From Chloroflexota bacterium (lineage in GTDB: Bacteria; Chloroflexota; Dehalococcoidia; JACQUE01): a stretch of 16,961 bases of DNA. The translations under genes and the position numbers were made by a program. The notes beneath the pieces were generated by a model that had not been told where the DNA came from, ran no database searches, and was given only the letters and a program-made list of their open reading frames with translations. This document shows, one piece after another, positions 3,430-16,961 of the stretch. How positions within the stretch are numbered: the stretch's first letter is position 1; each line of letters begins with the position of its first letter. The stretch covers positions 1-16,961 of the forward strand of contig JACQUE010000064.1 in assembly GCA_016210425.1 (NCBI GenBank), read 5' to 3'.

Positions 3430-3981
3430 ATGGACCGAGACGCGGCTCTCCACATCGTTGACGATCTGGTAAAGACAGACAACATAAGGAAGCACCTGAT
3501 CGCCAACGAGGCCATCATGCGAGCGCTAGGCAGGATGTTTGAACCGGCGAAGGCGGAGGAATACGCCCTGGCAGGCTTACTGCACGACGCGGACTACGAG
3601 GCGACAGAGAAAGACCTAGCCATGCATACGGACCTTGTGGCCAAGCGGATGCGAGAGGCCGGCGCCGGCGAGGAGCTGGTGACCGCCGTCCTGGGCCACT
3701 GCGATAAGGCCGCGCGCGACACGATGATGGCAAAATGCCTCTATGCCGGCGACAATATGGCGGGACTGATCACGGCGGCGGCGCTGGTGAGGCCGGATAG
3801 GAAGCTGGATGGTTTGACGCCGAAGTCGGTGTTGAAGCGGTTCAAAGAGCCGGCCTTCGCGCGCGGCGCTAATCGTGAAGAGATACTCACCTGTGAGCGC
3901 GAGATGGGGATGCCGCTGTCCGAGTTCACCGAGGTATGCCTGGAGGCGATGAAGAGCGTCGCGGATGATCTGGGGCTCTGA
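3430..3981 (+). CDS. HD-domain protein, putative metal-dependent phosphohydrolase
   Basis: The 183-residue protein starts at ATG 3430 with GGAGGAG just upstream. It carries the ordered metal ligands of the HD superfamily: His22 (IRKHLIANEA), His52-Asp53 (GLLHDADYE), His66 (AMHT), His90 (VLGHCD) and Asp108 (AGDNMAGLI). Small stand-alone HD proteins of this type are cytoplasmic metal-dependent phosphohydrolases or phosphodiesterases of mostly unknown substrate. No second domain, signal peptide or membrane segment is visible. rsmG starts six bases after its stop, so the two are very probably cotranscribed. That does not by itself tell its function. The fold is clear; the substrate is unknown. 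Confidence 0.88.
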   Translation: MDRDAALHIVDDLVKTDNIRKHLIANEAIMRALGRMFEPAKAEEYALAGLLHDADYEATEKDLAMHTDLVAKRMREAGAGEELVTAVLGHCDKAARDTMMAKCLYAGDNMAGLITAAALVRPDRKLDGLTPKSVLKRFKEPAFARGANREEILTCEREMGMPLSEFTEVCLEAMKSVADDLGL

Positions 3982-4781: not shown

Positions 4782-4857
<76 letters not shown>

Positions 4858-5663: not shown

Positions 5664-6512
5664 ATGGAAATAACGGACATCCCGAGCCAGATTGCCCGCG
5701 CCTTCAAATACTCCTTACGTTCAAAGACCAGCTTCCTACTCTCGTTGCTAGCGGCGGGCTTGGTCTTGGGCGTCTCTTTTGACCTCCTGTATGGCTTTGG
5801 CTACAGGAGGGTATTCAACACAAAGGATGCCCACTACGGTCCGACGTTTTGGTCTAGTCTACTGTTCGTTGCTCTTGTTCTCCCAGTCGCCTCTGGACTC
5901 TACAGCATTCTCCGCGCTCGCGCGCAGACTCGGCCGTTCCAGCCTGGCCGCTATGGGATTGCCATAGCCCCGTTCGAGGTCTTTTCCCTCGATCCAGATA
6001 CCCTCGGCACGTCAAGCAAGCTACAGGCTCTAGACACGGTTATGAATCAGTTTTTCACTGCCGCAAACGGAATCATCAATCAAGAGAACTGGGCACAAAG
6101 CTTTGAGTTTCGCTTCCTGCCTCCCAACATCCGGATTCACAATACGCAAGAAGCAGTCGCCCAACGGACATCGTTGGGTGCTACACTGATTATCTGGGGG
6201 GAGGTAATCCAACAAAGCTACTCACCGCTCAGGATAGTTTTCCATCTCCTTGGGACAGAACTCGACCTAACAATGCAAGGTCCCCTAGACCCTTTTACCC
6301 CGATTCCGTTCTTGAAGTTCTGCGCCCTTTCTGCCGCCGCTTTCTCCCATCGAGCCAACGGCGAGCATCAGCGGGCAAGGGAACTGTTTTTGCTTGCTAG
6401 AAGCCCCGCGAGCGAACTCGATAAGCAAGCCAATACCAACACGAATGTCGCCATTATCGACGGGTGCGTCAGTAAGTTGGACGATGCGATGAAGAAGGAC
6501 GTGGCCACCTGA
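5664..6512 (+). CDS. Hypothetical membrane-anchored protein with two N-terminal helices
   Basis: I do not recognise this 282-residue protein as a named family. Two hydrophobic segments, at residues about 23-45 and 62-84, make a membrane hairpin separated by a short polar loop. The remaining about 190 residues are soluble and lie on the same side as the N-terminus. Inside them GYGIAIAPFEVFSLD-like beta strands near 96-110 and the stretch SLGATLIIWGEVIQ at 170-183 recall the alpha/beta fold of TolB-N/CsgG/FlgO-like domains, where a GA..vvWG segment is common. This is a weak resemblance only. A helical tail (221-270, AAAFSHRANGEHQRARELFLLA) could be a single TPR-like hairpin. The ribosome site before ATG 5664 is poor. 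The gene looks less GC-rich than its neighbours and lies inside the possible island. Confidence 0.7.
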   Translation: MEITDIPSQIARAFKYSLRSKTSFLLSLLAAGLVLGVSFDLLYGFGYRRVFNTKDAHYGPTFWSSLLFVALVLPVASGLYSILRARAQTRPFQPGRYGIAIAPFEVFSLDPDTLGTSSKLQALDTVMNQFFTAANGIINQENWAQSFEFRFLPPNIRIHNTQEAVAQRTSLGATLIIWGEVIQQSYSPLRIVFHLLGTELDLTMQGPLDPFTPIPFLKFCALSAAAFSHRANGEHQRARELFLLARSPASELDKQANTNTNVAIIDGCVSKLDDAMKKDVAT

Positions 6513-7161: not shown

Positions 7162-7169
7162 AAGGAGAG
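7162..7169 (+). promoter_or_regulatory. Ribosome binding site fixing the GTG start of the DUF1573-like lipoprotein
   Basis: AAGGAGAG lies six bases before GTG 7176. The in-frame ATG at 7158 has only a poor site (TTGAGAG directly adjacent) and would add six residues before the Arg-rich start of the signal peptide. GTG 7176 is therefore preferred. Confidence 0.6.
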
Positions 7170-7175
7170 TGGATA

Positions 7176-7619
7176 GTGCGAAGACGCATAGTGGTATTGG
7201 CTTCGCTCTTAGTGCTGACGGCGGTCCTCGCGGCATGCTCCGGCAGTAAGAGGTCTGCGGAGACCATACCTGTCGCCCCGAAGGGGAAAGGCCCGGAGAT
7301 CACGGTGGACAAGGAGAGCCTGGACTTCGGAAAGGTACGCTTCCTACAGATGGTCGAGCCGGCTTTTCGAATCAGTAACGTGGGAGATGCCGATCTGCAC
7401 GTGACCCGAGTCTCGGTAACGGTCTTAGCAGGCTGCTGACCGCCCGAAGCAGTCGTGAGTTCCACGACGATCAAGCCCGGCCGGTCGGCCACCCTGACCG
7501 CGCCATTTACAATGCATGAAGGCATGGGCGGCCCCCACACCTTCGAGATTCACGTTTTCTCCGACGACACGCGCCAACCGGAAAAAAAGCTCTACGTCAA
7601 AGCCGAGTTCGTCCCGTAA
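7176..7619 (+). CDS. DUF1573-like lipoprotein with in-frame TGA (candidate selenoprotein, Cys-Sec motif)
   Basis: From GTG 7176 the protein reads MRRRIVVLASLLVLTAVLAA then Cys21, a lipoprotein signal peptide with lipobox LAAC, so it should be anchored outside the membrane. A DUF1573-like beta-sandwich follows: LDFGKVRFLQMVEPAFRISN, VGDADLHVTRVSVTV. The frame then meets TGA at 7437-7439 (codon 88), directly after Cys87. Translation continues in the same frame with PPEAVVSSTTIKPGRSATL, later GGPHTFEIHVFSDDTRQP and a final YVKAEFVP before TAA 7617-7619. The post-TGA half contains the expected PG.S.TLT and SDD..QP family positions, so both halves belong to one protein of 147 residues. DUF1573-like proteins often have clustered cysteines at this place. 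Read-through as selenocysteine would give Cys-Sec-Pro-Pro. The alternative is a single-base Cys-to-stop mutation (TGC or TGT to TGA), or a sequencing error, leaving an 87-residue fragment. Confidence 0.6.
7435..7489 (+). promoter_or_regulatory. SECIS-like RNA hairpin downstream of the in-frame TGA
   Basis: GTCGTG (7452-7457) and CACGAC (7463-7468) pair perfectly around the five-base loop AGTTC. The loop starts 18 bases after the TGA and has G in its second position. Published descriptions of bacterial SECIS elements ask for a loop about 16-37 bases after UGA with a G in its first two positions. A lower stem can also form: GCTGACCG (7435-7442, containing the TGA) with CGGTCGGC (7482-7489), eight pairs including one G-U. 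Short hairpins are frequent in GC-rich DNA, so this is supporting evidence only. Confidence 0.35.
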
Positions 7620-10899: not shown

Positions 10900-10942
10900 G
10901 AAAATCGTCCGTGAAAGGTTGCTGAGCGGGTTGCACGGCGAG

Positions 10943-11299
10943 GTGGCGGTAAACTATACAGCAGTACTTATCACGGCTATTGCAGGCTTCGGCTTAATAG
11001 CCGTTCTCTTTGTAGCCTCCTCGATCCTTTCTCCTAGAAGGTATAGCGAGAAGAAGGTCACGACCTACGAGTGCGGCATGCTGCCCCTTGGCCGCTTTTG
11101 GACCCAGGTTCACATCCGCTACTACATCTTTGGAATTCTCTTCGTCCTCTTCGACGTCGAAGCTGTCTTCCTTTTCCCATGGGCCATCGTCTTCCTGCGG
11201 CTGGGGCCCGTGGCTTTTTACGAAATGGTCATCTTCCTGGCCATTCTTCTCTTTGGCCTCTTATACGCCTGGAAAAAGGGAGTGCTACAGTGGAAGTAG
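10943..11299 (+). CDS. nuoA: NADH-quinone oxidoreductase subunit A
   Basis: This is the small three-helix membrane subunit of complex I at the junction of the peripheral and membrane arms. The marks are a first helix (about 8-32), then the loop [17 protein letters not shown] with the conserved Glu-Cys-Gly, [20 protein letters not shown] with its acidic pair, and [11 protein letters not shown] at the end. I chose GTG 10943 ([10 protein letters not shown]), giving 118 residues and a short tail before the first helix, as usual for the family. In-frame TTGs at 10919 and 10931 are alternatives with no better ribosome site. It is the first gene of the nuo operon and overlaps nuoB by ten bases. Confidence 0.93.
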
Positions 11300-11820
11300 T
11301 GTGGCGAGAATCTCCGTCGCTTGCCTTAGCTAACGGCCACGGCCTCTACCATCACCTCCCCGGAGTCATCACCGCCAAGACCGACTACCTCTTCGCAATG
11401 GCCCGCAAGTCATCCCTCTGGCCCCTCACCTTCGGCCTAGCCTGCTGCGCCATCGAGATGATCGGGGCCTACATGGCGGAGCATGACCTTGACCGCTTCG
11501 GCGTGGTGACATGGCCGTCGCCGCGCCAATCGGACGTCATGATCATCGCCGGGACCGCCGTCAAGAAGATGGCCGAGCCCATCAAACTGCTGTGGGAGCA
11601 GATGCCCTTGCCCAAGTGGGCCATCGCCATGGGCGCCTGCGCTACCGACGGGGGTCCCTTCCAGCGCTCCTACTCGACCGTCCAGGGCGCCGACCAGATC
11701 ATACCCATCGATGTTTATGTTCCGGGCTGCCCGCCGCGGCCCCAGGCTCTTCTCTACGGCATCATCAAACTCCAAGAGAAGATAATGGCGGAAGCCTCGA
11801 ACCGCAAAGCGGCAGTATGA
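11290..11820 (+). CDS. nuoB: NADH-quinone oxidoreductase subunit B
   Basis: This 176-residue subunit holds cluster N2, the last iron-sulfur centre before quinone. The four ligands are present: Cys52 and Cys53 in GLACCAIEM, Cys117 in MGACATDGG, and Cys147 in [26 protein letters not shown] is the family segment near the quinone site. I chose GTG 11290 because AAAGGGAG lies seven bases before it. GTG 11299, sharing one base with the nuoA stop, is an alternative. The start overlaps the end of nuoA and the TGA overlaps the ATG of nuoC, so translation is probably coupled through all three genes. Confidence 0.95.
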
Positions 11821-12362
11821 CGGAAGAACACTCGGCTCATTCGGTTCATACAGCTCCCAAGAAGGAGCCCGGCCCCAGTCTTTTCCCGGAGATGGAAAGG
11901 CTCGTCGCGGAGGTCCTATCTGGGATAGAGGTCACTTCAGAGCAGGTCGTCGACGAGCACGCCATAATCATCGACCGCAAGGACCTCCTTGCGGTCTGCC
12001 GCCGCCTCAAGGATAACCAGCGCCTCAGCTTCGACCTGCTGCGCTGCGTCTCGGTCGTCGACTACCCCAACGAGTCCGTCTTCCAGGCCGTCTACCACCT
12101 CTACTCCATCGGGCTCAAGCACCGCATGGCCGTCAAGACCGGCATCCCCTACGATGACGCGATCGTCGACTCAGTGACCTCCGTTTGGGCGGGCGCCGAC
12201 TGGCACGAGCGCGAGGCTGCTGAGCTGCTGGGGGTAGAGTTCAGGGGCCATCCCAACCTGAGGCCGCTTTTGCTGCCAGACGACTTCGAGGGTCATCCGC
12301 TGCGCAAGAGCTTCAAGGTACCCGAGCTGGACCAAGCGAGGTTCCGACGTGGCCGAGAGTAG
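11817..12362 (+). CDS. nuoC: NADH-quinone oxidoreductase subunit C
   Basis: This is the 30-kDa-type subunit of the peripheral arm that packs against NuoD. The diagnostic stretch [20 protein letters not shown] followed by [19 protein letters not shown] occupies residues 128-166. The first about 20 residues ([19 protein letters not shown]) are an extra polar tail not needed for the fold. The ATG at 11817 shares bases with the nuoB stop (ATGA). NuoC and NuoD are separate genes here, not fused as in E. coli. The 181-residue length is normal. Confidence 0.95.
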
Positions 12363-13458
12363 GCTCGAGACTGTCGACATGTTCATCAATATGGGGCCTC
12401 AGCACCCCAGCACCCACGGCGTGTTCCGGATGGTACTGACGATAGACGGCGAGCAGATCGTCGACATGAAGCCTCATATCGGCTACCTCCACCGCGGCGT
12501 AGAGAAGCTGGCCGAAGGTCTGCGCTACCGCGAGGTGACGGTTCTCCTCGACCGCACCGACTACCTGGCCGCGCTCAATAACGAGCTGCCCTACGTTATG
12601 GCACTAGAGAAGCTCCTGGATGTTAAGGTGCCGGAGCGCGCCGAGTACATCCGCGTCCTCGTCTGCGAGCTGAACCGTATCGCCAGCCATCTGATGTTCT
12701 ACGGAGCCTTCGGCGCCGACGCAGGCGCCACAACACCCTTCATGTACGCCTTCCGCGACCGAGAGGAGATCCAGCACTTCTTCGAGGCTGTGACCGGCGG
12801 CCGCCTGATGCACAACTACTTCCGCGTCGGCGGCGTCCGCTACGACCTACCGGAGGACTGGCGCGAGCGGCTGACCAAGCTCATCCCGCACCTGCGCAAG
12901 GGGATCGTGGACTGCGAGCGCCTCCTCTCCGACAACGAGATCTTCCTTAATCGGACCATCGGCGTAGGCCAGATAAGCGCCGCCGATGCCATCGATTACG
13001 GACTGACCGGCCCCAACCTTCGTGCCTGCGGCGTCCGGCTTGACCTGCGCCGCGACCAGCCCTACTCGGTGTACCCGAAGCTGGAGTTCGACGTGCCGAC
13101 CCGCAGCCGGGGCGACTGCTACGACCGCTACCTGCTGCGCGTCGAGGAGATGCGGCAGTCGCTGCGCATCGTGGAGCAGTGCCTCGAACAGATGCCCGAC
13201 GGCCCCTCGCTGGGCGAGGTGCCGCGCGTCATCCGCCCCAAGGAGGGCGAGGTTTACGTGGGCACCGAGAACCCGCGCGGCGAATATGGGATCTACCTCG
13301 TCAGCCGGGGCGGCGACTACCCTTATCGTGTCAAGGTACGCGCACCTTCCTTCTGCAATCTGATGGCTCTCAACGAGATGATGCGCGGCTGCTACATCGC
13401 GGACTGCGTCCTCATCCTGGGCTCCATCGACATAGTCCTAGGGGAGGTGGATCGCTAG
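12349..13458 (+). CDS. nuoD: NADH-quinone oxidoreductase subunit D (49-kDa type)
   Basis: This 369-residue subunit, with NuoB, forms the quinone-reducing site. Near the start is NMGPQHPSTHGVFRMVL, whose His-Pro-Ser-Thr-His loop lines that site. IGYLHRGVEKLAE, ELNRIASHLMFYGAFGADAG and RAPSFCNLMALNEMMRG are family segments shared with [NiFe]-hydrogenase large subunits. The nickel-binding cysteine pairs of hydrogenases are absent, as expected for a NuoD. It starts at GTG 12349 with GAGG seven bases upstream and overlaps nuoC by 14 bases. nuoH follows after one base; there are no nuoE, nuoF or nuoG genes between. Confidence 0.95.
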   Translation: MAESRLETVDMFINMGPQHPSTHGVFRMVLTIDGEQIVDMKPHIGYLHRGVEKLAEGLRYREVTVLLDRTDYLAALNNELPYVMALEKLLDVKVPERAEYIRVLVCELNRIASHLMFYGAFGADAGATTPFMYAFRDREEIQHFFEAVTGGRLMHNYFRVGGVRYDLPEDWRERLTKLIPHLRKGIVDCERLLSDNEIFLNRTIGVGQISAADAIDYGLTGPNLRACGVRLDLRRDQPYSVYPKLEFDVPTRSRGDCYDRYLLRVEEMRQSLRIVEQCLEQMPDGPSLGEVPRVIRPKEGEVYVGTENPRGEYGIYLVSRGGDYPYRVKVRAPSFCNLMALNEMMRGCYIADCVLILGSIDIVLGEVDR

Positions 13459-13459
13459 A

Positions 13460-14491
13460 TTGCCTGAGTGGGTTGAATCGATAATCCGCGTTGCGATAGC
13501 CATCGGCTTCGTCTTAACGACGGTACTGGTACTCATCTGGCTAGAGCGTAAGGTAATCGGGCACATCCAGCAGCGCCTCGGCCCCATGCGCACCGGCTTC
13601 CACGGCTTCCTGCAGAGCCCCGCCGACGCCGTTAAGCTACTGGTCAAAGAGGACATCATACCTGCAGCCGCAGACCGCTGGGCCTTCCAGCTCGCCCCAG
13701 CGCTGGTATTCGTGCCCATCTTCTTGACCGTCGTCTCGATACCCTTTACCAGAACCCTCGTGGTCCGCAACCTGGACCTGGGGCTCTTCTACGTCTTCGC
13801 CATCTCTTCCATATCCATAGTTGGTATAGTCATGGCCGGCTGGGCCTCTGGCAACAAGTATGCGCTGCTGGGCTCAGTACGCGCCGGCGCCCAGATGGTC
13901 AGCTACGAGATACCATTGGTCTTCTCGATCCTGGGCGTAGCTATGGTGGCCGGCTCCCTGAACCTGGAAACCATCGTCGACGCCCAGCGCGGCCTGTGGT
14001 ACATAGTACTCCAGCCCGTGGGCATGTTCATTTTCCTTGTCGCATCACTGGCAGAGCTCAACCGGACGCCGTTCGACATCCCCGTAGCCGAATCAGAGGT
14101 CGTGGGTGGACCGTACGTCGAGTACAGCGGCATACGCTGGGGCGTCTTCTTCCTCTCGGAGTACGCCAACACGTTCATCATCTCGGCGCTGGCCGCCGTA
14201 GTCTTCCTGGCCGGCTGGCGTGGGCCGCTTCTGCCAGGCTGGCTCTGGTTCCTCATCAAGACATACGCCATCATCCTCATCATCTTCTGGTTTCGCGCGA
14301 CCCTTCCTCGCCTCCGCATCGATCAGCTCATGACATTTGCATGGAAGCTGTTGTTACCGCTGGCGTTCGTGAACCTCCTAATCACGGGACTCTACCTTGT
14401 TTATGACTGGCCGCGCTGGATACTGTTCGTCGCCTCGGTGGCGGTGCTTGCCGTGGCCAGCCGCCTGGTGTACGTCGTGGGGAGGGCCTAG
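13460..14491 (+). CDS. nuoH: NADH-quinone oxidoreductase subunit H
   Basis: This 343-residue membrane subunit links the quinone site to the proton-pumping arm. Family segments are LIWLERKVIGHIQQRLGPMR in the first cytoplasmic loop, DAVKLLVKEDI, GSVRAGAQMVSYEIPL, ELNRTPFDIPVAESEVVGG followed by VEYSG, and FRATLPRLRIDQLM. About eight hydrophobic helices are visible. The only suitable start is TTG 13460, one base after the nuoD stop, with GGGAGG 12 bases upstream, a long spacing that hints at coupling to nuoD translation. Confidence 0.95.
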   Translation: MPEWVESIIRVAIAIGFVLTTVLVLIWLERKVIGHIQQRLGPMRTGFHGFLQSPADAVKLLVKEDIIPAAADRWAFQLAPALVFVPIFLTVVSIPFTRTLVVRNLDLGLFYVFAISSISIVGIVMAGWASGNKYALLGSVRAGAQMVSYEIPLVFSILGVAMVAGSLNLETIVDAQRGLWYIVLQPVGMFIFLVASLAELNRTPFDIPVAESEVVGGPYVEYSGIRWGVFFLSEYANTFIISALAAVVFLAGWRGPLLPGWLWFLIKTYAIILIIFWFRATLPRLRIDQLMTFAWKLLLPLAFVNLLITGLYLVYDWPRWILFVASVAVLAVASRLVYVVGRA

Positions 14492-14493
14492 AG

Positions 14494-14928
14494 ATGCTGG
14501 GGATGCTGAAGGGCCTCATGACAACCATGCAAAGCCACTTCCGCAAGCCGGTCACGATCCAGTACCCAGACGAGCGACCGGACTTGCCGCCGCGCTACGC
14601 CGGCTTCCCCGGCCTCATATGGGATGCCAATGTCGGCGAGCCCTTCTGCACCGGCTGCCAGGTCTGCGCCCGCTTCTGCCCGACACAGTGTATCTACGTC
14701 ACCATGAAGGACAACCCCAAGGTCGGAGATGGTACCAGCAAGCGCCGCAAGATCGTCGACGAGTTTGAGCTCAACGTAAGCTGTTGCACCCAATGCGCCG
14801 TCTGCGTCGAGGTCTGCAACTTCGACGCCATCGAGATGACCCACACCTTCGAGATGGCCTCCTACTCCCGGGAGCAGGTTATGAACCTTCAGGACATGCT
14901 CAGTATGAAGGAAAAGGGAGGACCATAG
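14494..14928 (+). CDS. nuoI: NADH-quinone oxidoreductase subunit I (2x[4Fe-4S])
   Basis: This 144-residue ferredoxin-like subunit carries clusters N6a and N6b. Two cysteine motifs are visible: Cys52, 55, 58 and 62 in FCTGCQVCARFCP, and Cys98, 101, 104 and 108 in CTQCAVCVEVCNFDAI. The residue after the last cysteine is Asn109 rather than the usual Pro. The protein is on the short side for the family, without a long N-terminal extension. ATG 14494 lies two bases behind the nuoH stop with a GGGGAGGG site upstream. In an enzyme without NuoEFG this subunit would be the likely electron entry point. Confidence 0.95.
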   Translation: MLGMLKGLMTTMQSHFRKPVTIQYPDERPDLPPRYAGFPGLIWDANVGEPFCTGCQVCARFCPTQCIYVTMKDNPKVGDGTSKRRKIVDEFELNVSCCTQCAVCVEVCNFDAIEMTHTFEMASYSREQVMNLQDMLSMKEKGGP

Positions 14929-14929
14929 C

Positions 14930-15427
14930 TTGAACGTCCCCCTGGTCCTCTTCTGGGTCTTCGGCGCGGCCAGCCTCACCGCCGGGCTGCTGGTGGTCAC
15001 ATCGAAGAACATCGCCCATGCCGCGTTCTACCTGCTCTTCGCGCTGGTGGGCGTGGCCGTGCTCTTCCTGCTGATGGCCGCCGACTTCCTGGCCCTGGTG
15101 CAGTTCCTTATCTATGGAGGGGCCATCGTCGTTCTGCTTCTCTTCGCGCTGATGCTGACGCGCATCCGCGAGGGGCCCGTCATCGTGGGCAACTCCCAAA
15201 AGCCGCTGGCCATCGTCGCGGGCCTGGCCCTCTTGGCGCTGCTACTGTCGGTCGTCTTCGTGACCCCATGGCCTAAGCCGGCCACGGAAGCGATCCAGCG
15301 CATAGAGGTGCCGGTGATAGGAGAGAGCCTCTTCACCGACTGGCTCTTCCCCTTCGAAATAGTGTCGCTGGTACTGCTGGTCGCGCTCATCGGCGCCATA
15401 GTGATCGCACGTTCAGGTGATGACTAA
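14930..15427 (+). CDS. nuoJ: NADH-quinone oxidoreductase subunit J
   Basis: This 165-residue membrane subunit has five hydrophobic helices. Family marks are VVTSKNIAHAAFYLLFALVG, FLALVQFLIYGGAIVVLLLF and ALMLTRIR. A conserved helix of this subunit undergoes a structural switch during pumping. It starts at TTG 14930 with GGGAGGA seven bases upstream, one base after the nuoI stop. Its TAA shares a base with the ATG of nuoK. Confidence 0.94.
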   Translation: MNVPLVLFWVFGAASLTAGLLVVTSKNIAHAAFYLLFALVGVAVLFLLMAADFLALVQFLIYGGAIVVLLLFALMLTRIREGPVIVGNSQKPLAIVAGLALLALLLSVVFVTPWPKPATEAIQRIEVPVIGESLFTDWLFPFEIVSLVLLVALIGAIVIARSGDD

Positions 15428-15735
15428 TGATACCGCTGCAGCACATCCTCGCCCTTAGCGCAGGCCTCTTCGCCATCGGTGTCTACGGCGTCCTCTCACG
15501 GCGCAACGCAATTCTGATCCTGATGTCCATCGAACTGATGCTGAACGCCGTCAACATCAACCTCATTGCCTTCGCGATGTACCTGGCCCCCGACCGGTTC
15601 GTCGGCCAGATCTTCGCCATCTTCATCATATCTATCGCGGCGGCGGAGGTCGGCCTGGCGCTGGCCATCATCCTGCGCGTCTACCGCACACGCGCGACCA
15701 TCGATGTCGACAACATCGACCTGATGAAATGGTAG
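15427..15735 (+). CDS. nuoK: NADH-quinone oxidoreductase subunit K
   Basis: This 102-residue subunit has three helices and is related to MrpC antiporter subunits. The two functionally important intramembrane glutamates are at 36 (MSIELMLNAVNINL) and 74 (AAAEVGLALAI), essentially the positions known from E. coli NuoK (36 and 72). The length is normal. Its ATG overlaps the nuoJ stop by one base. Confidence 0.95.
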   Translation: MIPLQHILALSAGLFAIGVYGVLSRRNAILILMSIELMLNAVNINLIAFAMYLAPDRFVGQIFAIFIISIAAAEVGLALAIILRVYRTRATIDVDNIDLMKW

Positions 15736-15753
15736 GGAGGCAAGGCGGACGCT

Positions 15754-16961
15754 GTGACGACTAGCTACTCGCTCTTCCCCCTGGGCATAAACGACGCCTG
15801 GCTCCTGCCCGTCCTGTGCCTGGGCGCCTTTTTCGTCATCGCCATGTGGGGCAAGTACCTGCCGGGCAAAGGCAGCCTCGTCTCAGCCGCCGCCATCGGC
15901 CTGGGCTTCGTCATCTTCTGGTTCGTGCTCAAGGAGTATATCCGCTCCGGACCCGGCATCTACGGCTTCACCTGGTTCAGCACCGACGGTTTCCGGCTCA
16001 ACATCGCCATGAACGTCGATGCACTCACTCTCATGATGCTTGGCCTCGTGACCTCCGTCGCAACCCTGATCCAGATCTACTCCATCGGCTACATGCGCGG
16101 CGACCCGCGCTTCCCGTGGTACTTCGCCGCCCACTCGCTCTTCGCGGCAGCCATGCTGGGCCTGGTGTTGGCCGAGAACTTCCTCATCCTCTACGTTAGC
16201 TGGGAGCTGGTCGGCCTCTGCTCCTATCTGCTCATCGGCTACTACTACGAGCGGCGTTCTGCGGCTGAGGCCGCCAAGAAGGCCTTCATCACGACGCGCA
16301 TCGGCGACGTCGGCCTGCTCATCGGCGTACTGGTGCTCTGGAAGGCGACGGGCACCTTCAGTATCCCCGACATTATGCACAAGGCCGCTGCCGGCGAGAT
16401 CGCCCGCAGTACGATGACCTGGAGCGCGATCCTCGTCTTCTTGGGGGCGATGGGCAAGTCGGCACAGTTCCCCTTCCACGTATGGCTGCCCGACGCTATG
16501 GAGGGCCCGACGCCCGTCAGCGCCCTCATCCACGCTGCCACGATGGTGACCGCCGGCGTCTATCTGGTCGCCCGCGCCTTCCCGCTCTTCGAGGCCGCGC
16601 CCGGCGCTCTAGAGTTGGTGATGGCCGTCGGCATCTTCACGGCTATCTTGGCCGCCACTATGGGCCTAGTAATGACCGATATCAAGAAGGTGCTGGCCTA
16701 CTCCACCATCAGCCAGCTTGGCTTTATGATGATGAGCCTCGGGGCCTTCGGCTACACAGCGGGCATATTCCATCTCATCGCCCACGGTTTCTTCAAGGCG
16801 CTCCTCTTCCTTGGCGCAGGTAGCGTCATCCACAGCACCGAGAATCAGGAGATGGACAAGCTGGGCGGGCTGTGGAGAAAGATGCCCATTACGGCCATTA
16901 CCTTCGGCATCGCCACGCTGGCCATGGCCGGCATCCCGCCGCTAAGCGGCTTCTTCAGCAA
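15754..16961 (+). CDS. nuoL: NADH-quinone oxidoreductase subunit L, N-terminal two thirds, cut by window edge
   Basis: An open frame from GTG 15754 runs off the window after 402 codons; complete NuoL proteins are about 610-690 residues. It begins MTTSYSLFPLGINDAWLLPV. This is the distal Mrp-antiporter-like proton-pumping subunit. Key segments include NVDALTLMMLGLV, IQIYSIGYMRGDPRFPWYFA, LYVSWELVGLCSYLLIG with the pumping Glu, then MGKSAQFPFHVWLPDAMEGP with its Lys, SALIHAATMV with its His, and YSTISQLGFM. AAGGCGG lies five bases before the GTG, 18 bases after the nuoK stop. The last visible residues are AGIPPLSGFFS. nuoM and nuoN probably follow outside the window. Confidence 0.94.
   Translation, partial: MTTSYSLFPLGINDAWLLPVLCLGAFFVIAMWGKYLPGKGSLVSAAAIGLGFVIFWFVLKEYIRSGPGIYGFTWFSTDGFRLNIAMNVDALTLMMLGLVTSVATLIQIYSIGYMRGDPRFPWYFAAHSLFAAAMLGLVLAENFLILYVSWELVGLCSYLLIGYYYERRSAAEAAKKAFITTRIGDVGLLIGVLVLWKATGTFSIPDIMHKAAAGEIARSTMTWSAILVFLGAMGKSAQFPFHVWLPDAMEGPTPVSALIHAATMVTAGVYLVARAFPLFEAAPGALELVMAVGIFTAILAATMGLVMTDIKKVLAYSTISQLGFMMMSLGAFGYTAGIFHLIAHGFFKALLFLGAGSVIHSTENQEMDKLGGLWRKMPITAITFGIATLAMAGIPPLSGFFS

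Follow-up and report, generated by a model that had tools for sequence, protein, structure and literature searches.

DUF1573 proteins that contain selenocysteine (Sec) are already published: in the accessible text of PMC9312934 and PMC2398784 they appear as OS_HP2, a predicted bacterial selenoprotein with the motif UGC or UxC in its cysteine region, equated with pfam07610 in PMC2398784, and OS_HP2 / DUF1573 is also entered in Table 1 of a 2026 review that splits 119 selenoprotein families or subfamilies by the position of Sec (PMC13188914). The same table contains the CU-motif selenoproteins SaoL, SaoC, HgcA, MbdU, KCU-star and the Csac_0668 family, which have in common a vicinal Cys-Sec and several of which are named for metal or organometal chemistry; a CU-type DUF1573 protein is not among its 119 families (PMC13188914). 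In the stretch of Chloroflexota DNA analysed here (hereafter the window, 16,961 nucleotides), the gene at 7176..7619 of the forward strand very probably encodes such a protein, a full-length exported lipoprotein of the DUF1573 fold in which the in-frame UGA at 7437-7439 would be read as Sec.

The gene starts at a GTG located 8 nt downstream of a Shine-Dalgarno-like AAGGAG (7162..7167, read from the sequence), stops at TAA 7617-7619 and is interrupted by TGA 7437-7439 only; read through, it gives 147 residues with a predicted lipobox LAAC, whose Cys21 (7236..7238) was recognized by eye in the translation, and with Cys87 (7434..7436) directly 5′ of the putative Sec codon. The initial annotation was confirmed as to the frame, its DUF1573 domain, lipobox Cys, TGA and TAA; only its count of 60 codons past the TGA differs, as there are 59 sense codons. 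Its proposal that these codons encode the second half of the same domain was borne out by the PF07610 match of the read-through protein (43.9 bits against a cut-off of 26.1), which covers residues 42-144 and spans the TGA. The open frame is weak evidence when taken alone, since 59 codons would stay open by chance with a probability of about 0.23 at the composition of the window; judged from the sequence, it is the homology across the TGA that exceeds chance. The corresponding protein database entry (P0002) stops at Cys87. The gene is flanked by open reading frames without clear family and by a PMT-type glycosyltransferase; elsewhere the window harbors a tRNA-Arg gene (4782-4857) and, at 10919-16961, frames resembling NADH dehydrogenase (nuo) subunits, named from their translations only.

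Residue 88 was followed across homologues at the protein and at the nucleotide level. In the first protein search, all 11 homologues besides the window's own entry showed Gly-Cys-Cys-Pro-Pro, vs. Gly-Cys-TGA-Pro-Pro in the window, and after a profile search that matched 190 proteins, the best 120 of which were listed, 119 of the 121 listed homologues with conventional decoding read Cys-Cys-Pro in a motif search, one Cys-Trp-Pro and another Cys-Asn-Pro. Because gene callers stop at TGA, the protein database cannot reveal the TGA forms. Six-frame searches matched 17 genomes among 100 relatives, and 31 among 393 genomes of the window's class; 26 of these 31 (the window's genome counted) bear a TGA at the residue-88 column, two (G010 and G036) have Cys only, one (G003) has a different double-TGA paralogue, and two (G206 and G277) have other DUF1573 proteins, counted neither as TGA nor as Cys. 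Named loci were collected by searching for M[HY][EPQ]GMxG[PA]H, a pattern independent of the column in question, and among the best 80 of 120 confirmed loci Gly-Cys-TGA-Pro occurred in 75 and Cys only in five. According to the titles of the MAG records, whose phylum labels are taken as labelled, these best 80 of 120 loci come from Chloroflexota (72), Rokubacteria (4), Methylomirabilota/NC10 (2), Gemmatimonadetes (1) and Pseudomonadota (1), and they include one from a named strain, Thermanaerothrix daxensis GNS-1; no copy of the gene was confirmed in viral contigs. A TGA within the frame, at a column where homologues conserve Cys, is a criterion for selenoproteins and was hence found at position 88, as the initial annotation had expected. 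A TGA that returns at a single column in numerous separate assemblies is unlikely to stem from a sequencing error or from a nonsense mutation private to one genome. The Cys-Trp-Pro form belongs to a metagenomic homologue with Gly-Cys-Trp-Pro-Pro, and one may guess that its Trp is perhaps a TGA translated under another code.

The UGA is followed by a putative SECIS hairpin (7452..7468) with a 6-bp stem (7452-7457/7463-7468) and the loop AGUUC (7458-7462), 18 nt past the UGA. The bacterial SECIS model, in the accessible text of PMC13188914, has a loop of 3-9 nt with a G within the first two positions and a stem of at least 4 bp, at 16-37 nt past the UGA; the window hairpin lies within these limits, which alone are not discriminating, and a loose scan based on them was dropped as a discriminator because it passed 8 of 9 Cys forms as well as 96 of 96 TGA forms. 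Folding of the 70 nt that begin at 7431 was only moderately more stable than that of shuffled sequences (z −2.0; 8 of 200 shuffles did as well), and an Rfam search up to E 10 matched nothing at the hairpin. For the comparison across the family, unrelated hits (L084 minus, L095 minus and L141:13821) were removed from 108 distinct regular-expression hits, leaving 96 TGA and 9 Cys forms. Among the 92 distinct 45-mers of the TGA forms, 89 make at least five of the six pairs in the same register, 84 of them all six, and the remaining three make all six after a 3-nt shift, while 7 of 9 Cys forms make three pairs or fewer. The two other Cys forms (L089, near 8262, and L091, near 2988) still form six pairs, of which three are G-U, around the loop AGCUC, and might be SECIS relics after a Sec-to-Cys change.

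The stem also covaries. In the corrected mutual information of the 89 in-register sequences, the top five of 990 column pairs were stem pairs; in 40 of 69 thinned sequences 98.8% of cells were paired against 77.3% in shuffles, slid registers reached 18.8-67.9%, and two-sided changes occupied 46 stem cells against 9.1 (sd 2.3) in shuffles, which overstate the significance because the sequences are related. Two of the five covariation measures did not rise clearly above the shuffles, namely the pairs with two-sided change (reached by 33 of 500) and the pair types (reached by 300 of 500). A covariance model trained on 27 sequences, the window excluded, recovered 7437-7475 at 47.1 bits, the next match scoring 11.1, and a strict in-register test, defined after the family had been inspected, passed 96 of 96 TGA forms and none of the 9 Cys forms. 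The stem pair 19-29 alternates between G-C (54) and A-T (35) with no exception in 89 sequences. Residues 94 and 97 of the protein covary (Val94-Thr97 vs. Ile94-Met97) because the RNA pairing couples their codons.

Part of the Sec insertion machinery was retrieved from the window's own MAG (1.4 Mb, 54% complete), which holds a tRNA-Sec (69.8 bits; TCA anticodon by ARAGORN) and a selB above its cut-off; selA and selD, also named in the initial annotation, could not be detected in this 54%-complete MAG. Among 25 TGA-bearing relatives, tRNA-Sec exceeded 60 bits in 23 (not in G026 and G086), selA was above cut-off in 22 (not at all in G017 and only weakly in G040 and G288) and selB, with E up to 1e-60, occurred in 20 (not in G040, G288, G322, G347 and G381), so that at least two of the three were present in 23, G040 and G288 having tRNA-Sec alone. 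As to the Cys genomes, G010 has none of the three and G036 has tRNA-Sec and selB. Since tRNA-Sec is common in the class (matches in 81 of 100 genomes) and many matches are weak, near 50 bits, we claim no enrichment.

These data bear on two alternatives to Sec. A TGA acquired by a normally Cys gene, through a nonsense mutation (the main alternative in the initial annotation) or through misassembly, would agree with the Cys of conventionally decoded homologues and with the missing selA and selD, but it is contradicted by the same TGA in the 75 named loci (best 80 of 120), always accompanied by the in-register covarying hairpin, and appears highly improbable. A genome-wide reassignment of TGA, e.g., to Trp, or simple leakiness of the codon would in turn accommodate the Trp of the metagenomic homologue; TGA nevertheless terminates other frames of the window (3430-3981, 5664-6512 and 11071-11820), tRNA-Sec and selB are present, and the hairpin is specific to the TGA forms under the strict test, leaving this explanation with next to no probability. 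The reading of the TGA as Sec is thus supported by the conservation of the column, by the covarying in-register hairpin and by tRNA-Sec together with selB. SelB would deliver Sec-tRNA-Sec to the UGA at 7437-7439, the hairpin at 7452-7468 would direct the insertion, and the predicted product would carry vicinal Cys87 and Sec88 followed by Pro-Pro.

Whether this selenoprotein is new depends on its relation to OS_HP2. The two share the Pfam domain (OS_HP2 corresponding to pfam07610, as given in the accessible text of PMC2398784) and a Sec in the cysteine region, and the OS_HP2 model NF041425 was the top NCBIfam match of the window protein. The score was nonetheless 32.4 bits where the curated cut-off is 100; of five further members, four reached 15.2 to 33.5 bits and one had no match. 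The published motif is moreover UGC or UxC, vs. the vicinal C-U-P-P found here. OS_HP2 membership, which would make the family not new, was consequently rejected as improbable, the distinction being drawn from score and motif. No NCBIfam model was above cut-off for nine members tested, and the Cys-Sec form of DUF1573 was not found in the accessible text of further literature, including PMC12013277 and PMC5029168, although other papers could contain it. The claim of a new selenoprotein made in the initial annotation therefore holds for the Cys-Sec form, absent from the catalogue of 119 families, and not for DUF1573 selenoproteins as such, given OS_HP2.

Other relatives are more readily told apart. 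Conventional DUF1573 proteins (PF07610) share the domain, for which the window protein is above the curated cut-off, but a conventional CxC member, L037, has Ser-Cys-Asp-Cys-Thr and no TGA, whereas the subfamily described here has Gly-Cys-(Cys/Sec)-Pro and a conserved MHEGMGGPH; the alignment of L037 extended only up to the strand preceding the cysteines. The CU-motif selenoproteins have other folds, judged by their names, and none was matched by the window protein in NCBIfam up to E 10. The PCYCGC / OS_HP4 CYCXC protein (PF13798, NF041379), a neighbor in 43 of 104 loci and once fused to DUF1573 (P0122), is a different domain; its NCBIfam family includes selenoprotein members by name. A motif search for TGA-bearing PCYCGC neighbors gave two matches, neither of them convincing, and the neighbors observed are Cys forms.

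On a FastTree phylogeny of 146 rows (96 Sec loci, 9 Cys loci and 41 Cys proteins, i.e., every third of P0003-P0123), the Sec/Cys label changed at least 18 times, with 7 changes forced by starred branches, in an alignment of 114 columns in which many forks are weak. Genome G322 holds both states in one locus (L063), with a Cys copy and a Sec copy separated by some 600 nt, near 1181 and 1779. Two DUF1573 paralogues, L035:1471-1896 (−) and L039:1486-1989 (−), carry two in-frame TGA codons in the putative motif Gly-Gly-U-x-U-Gly, the second of which aligns with residue 88 in the profile alignment; the hairpin past the second TGA scored 24.5 bits in L035 and only 11.7 in L039, whose protein database entry (P0124) is cut at the first TGA. 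Variation in architecture was observed as well: L032:245-1048 (−) has an N-terminal rhodanese-like region, judged from its sequence, L027 has a longer two-domain frame, as do L059 and L060 by second matches in the class search, and P0054 joins WD40-type repeats to DUF1573 (Pfam labels, as for the PCYCGC fusion).

The conserved residues give some indication of what the protein may do. Gly86, Cys87, residue 88, Pro89, Met117, Gly119, His121 and Phe123 were invariant in 62 of 62 aligned rows, Met113 was found in 60 and His114 in 56, so that the segment MHEGMGGPH (7512..7538) supplies four candidate soft-metal ligands (Met113, His114, Met117 and His121), and together with Cys87 and residue 88 the Met and His residues compose what looks like a soft-metal site. 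Thiol-disulfide or metal chemistry, as initially suggested for a Cys-Sec protein, is plausible.

The gene neighborhood may point to copper in part of the family. A regular-expression motif scan of 104 loci (76 named, the window and 27 of its class, many of them near relatives) found, within 4.5 kb, CuA motifs in 42 loci, PCYCGC in 43, P-type ATPases in 23 and multicopper oxidases in 6; any of these or a polyferredoxin, whose motif was too strict in the scan (3 of 104 loci), occurred in 71. Hits within 4.5 kb compared with those at 4.5-8 kb, an outer zone that is partly cut off, were 66:1 for CuA, 43:2 for PCYCGC, 28:6 for the ATPase and 6:3 for the oxidase. Neighbor counts were taken from the motif scan; single-linkage clusters chain unrelated proteins (cluster B). 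In one locus (L102) the order is PCYCGC, a small CuA cupredoxin, a membrane 4Fe-4S protein weakly like NapH, CuA with cytochrome c, and the gene considered here. Across the 27 loci of the window's class, CuA was near one, PCYCGC near seven and any listed motif near 14, and in the window itself the 4.5-kb scan detected no listed copper motif near the gene.

Sco and PCuAC are exported copper chaperones that bind the metal through Cys, Met and His ligands and serve CuA sites; their folds are other than DUF1573 and they contain no Sec. The window protein may work like them, by analogy. We tentatively favor, at somewhat less than an even chance, an exported copper-binding or CuA-maturation factor as the most likely function, with redox chemistry next. 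The Cys-Sec pair, with the conserved Met and His, would take up or reduce copper outside the cytoplasm, either for CuA-type sites or for copper export, and PCYCGC-type proteins, CuA cupredoxins and P-type ATPases would be the partners. More specifically, Sec itself could ligate copper along with the vicinal Cys, Met and His, in a selenium-dependent copper site feeding or maturing CuA-type proteins of Chloroflexota as well as other phyla; this would make Sec a copper ligand and not an ordinary redox catalyst. This narrower proposal is rather doubtful, and both it and the copper role in general were graded lower because CuA is near only one of the 27 loci of the window's class.

The scarcity of CuA genes near those loci would suit the same selenoprotein acting as a copper-free thiol-selenol redox enzyme that reduces, e.g., a disulfide in an exported partner. 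A vicinal Cys-Cys or Cys-Sec is able to form a redox pair, one member has the rhodanese-like region mentioned above, and a redox role is assumed for most selenoproteins, as stated in the accessible text of PMC13188914. On the other hand, Met and His are invariant beside the Cys-Sec, copper proteins are abundant in the neighborhood in other classes, and the fold is not thioredoxin-like by Pfam; a redox enzyme without copper is accordingly a serious possibility, if short of a probable one.

Overall, the locus would add a widespread selenoprotein subfamily whose members are truncated at the UGA in standard annotation, an overlooked family that adjoins copper-handling genes in many bacteria. The subfamily is experimentally testable, because one of its loci lies in the named strain Thermanaerothrix daxensis GNS-1. 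In addition, a single hairpin imposes paired changes on the amino acids, and the resulting covariation of residues 94 and 97 is a trap for contact prediction. If the copper link is true, selenium would be tied to extracytoplasmic copper handling.
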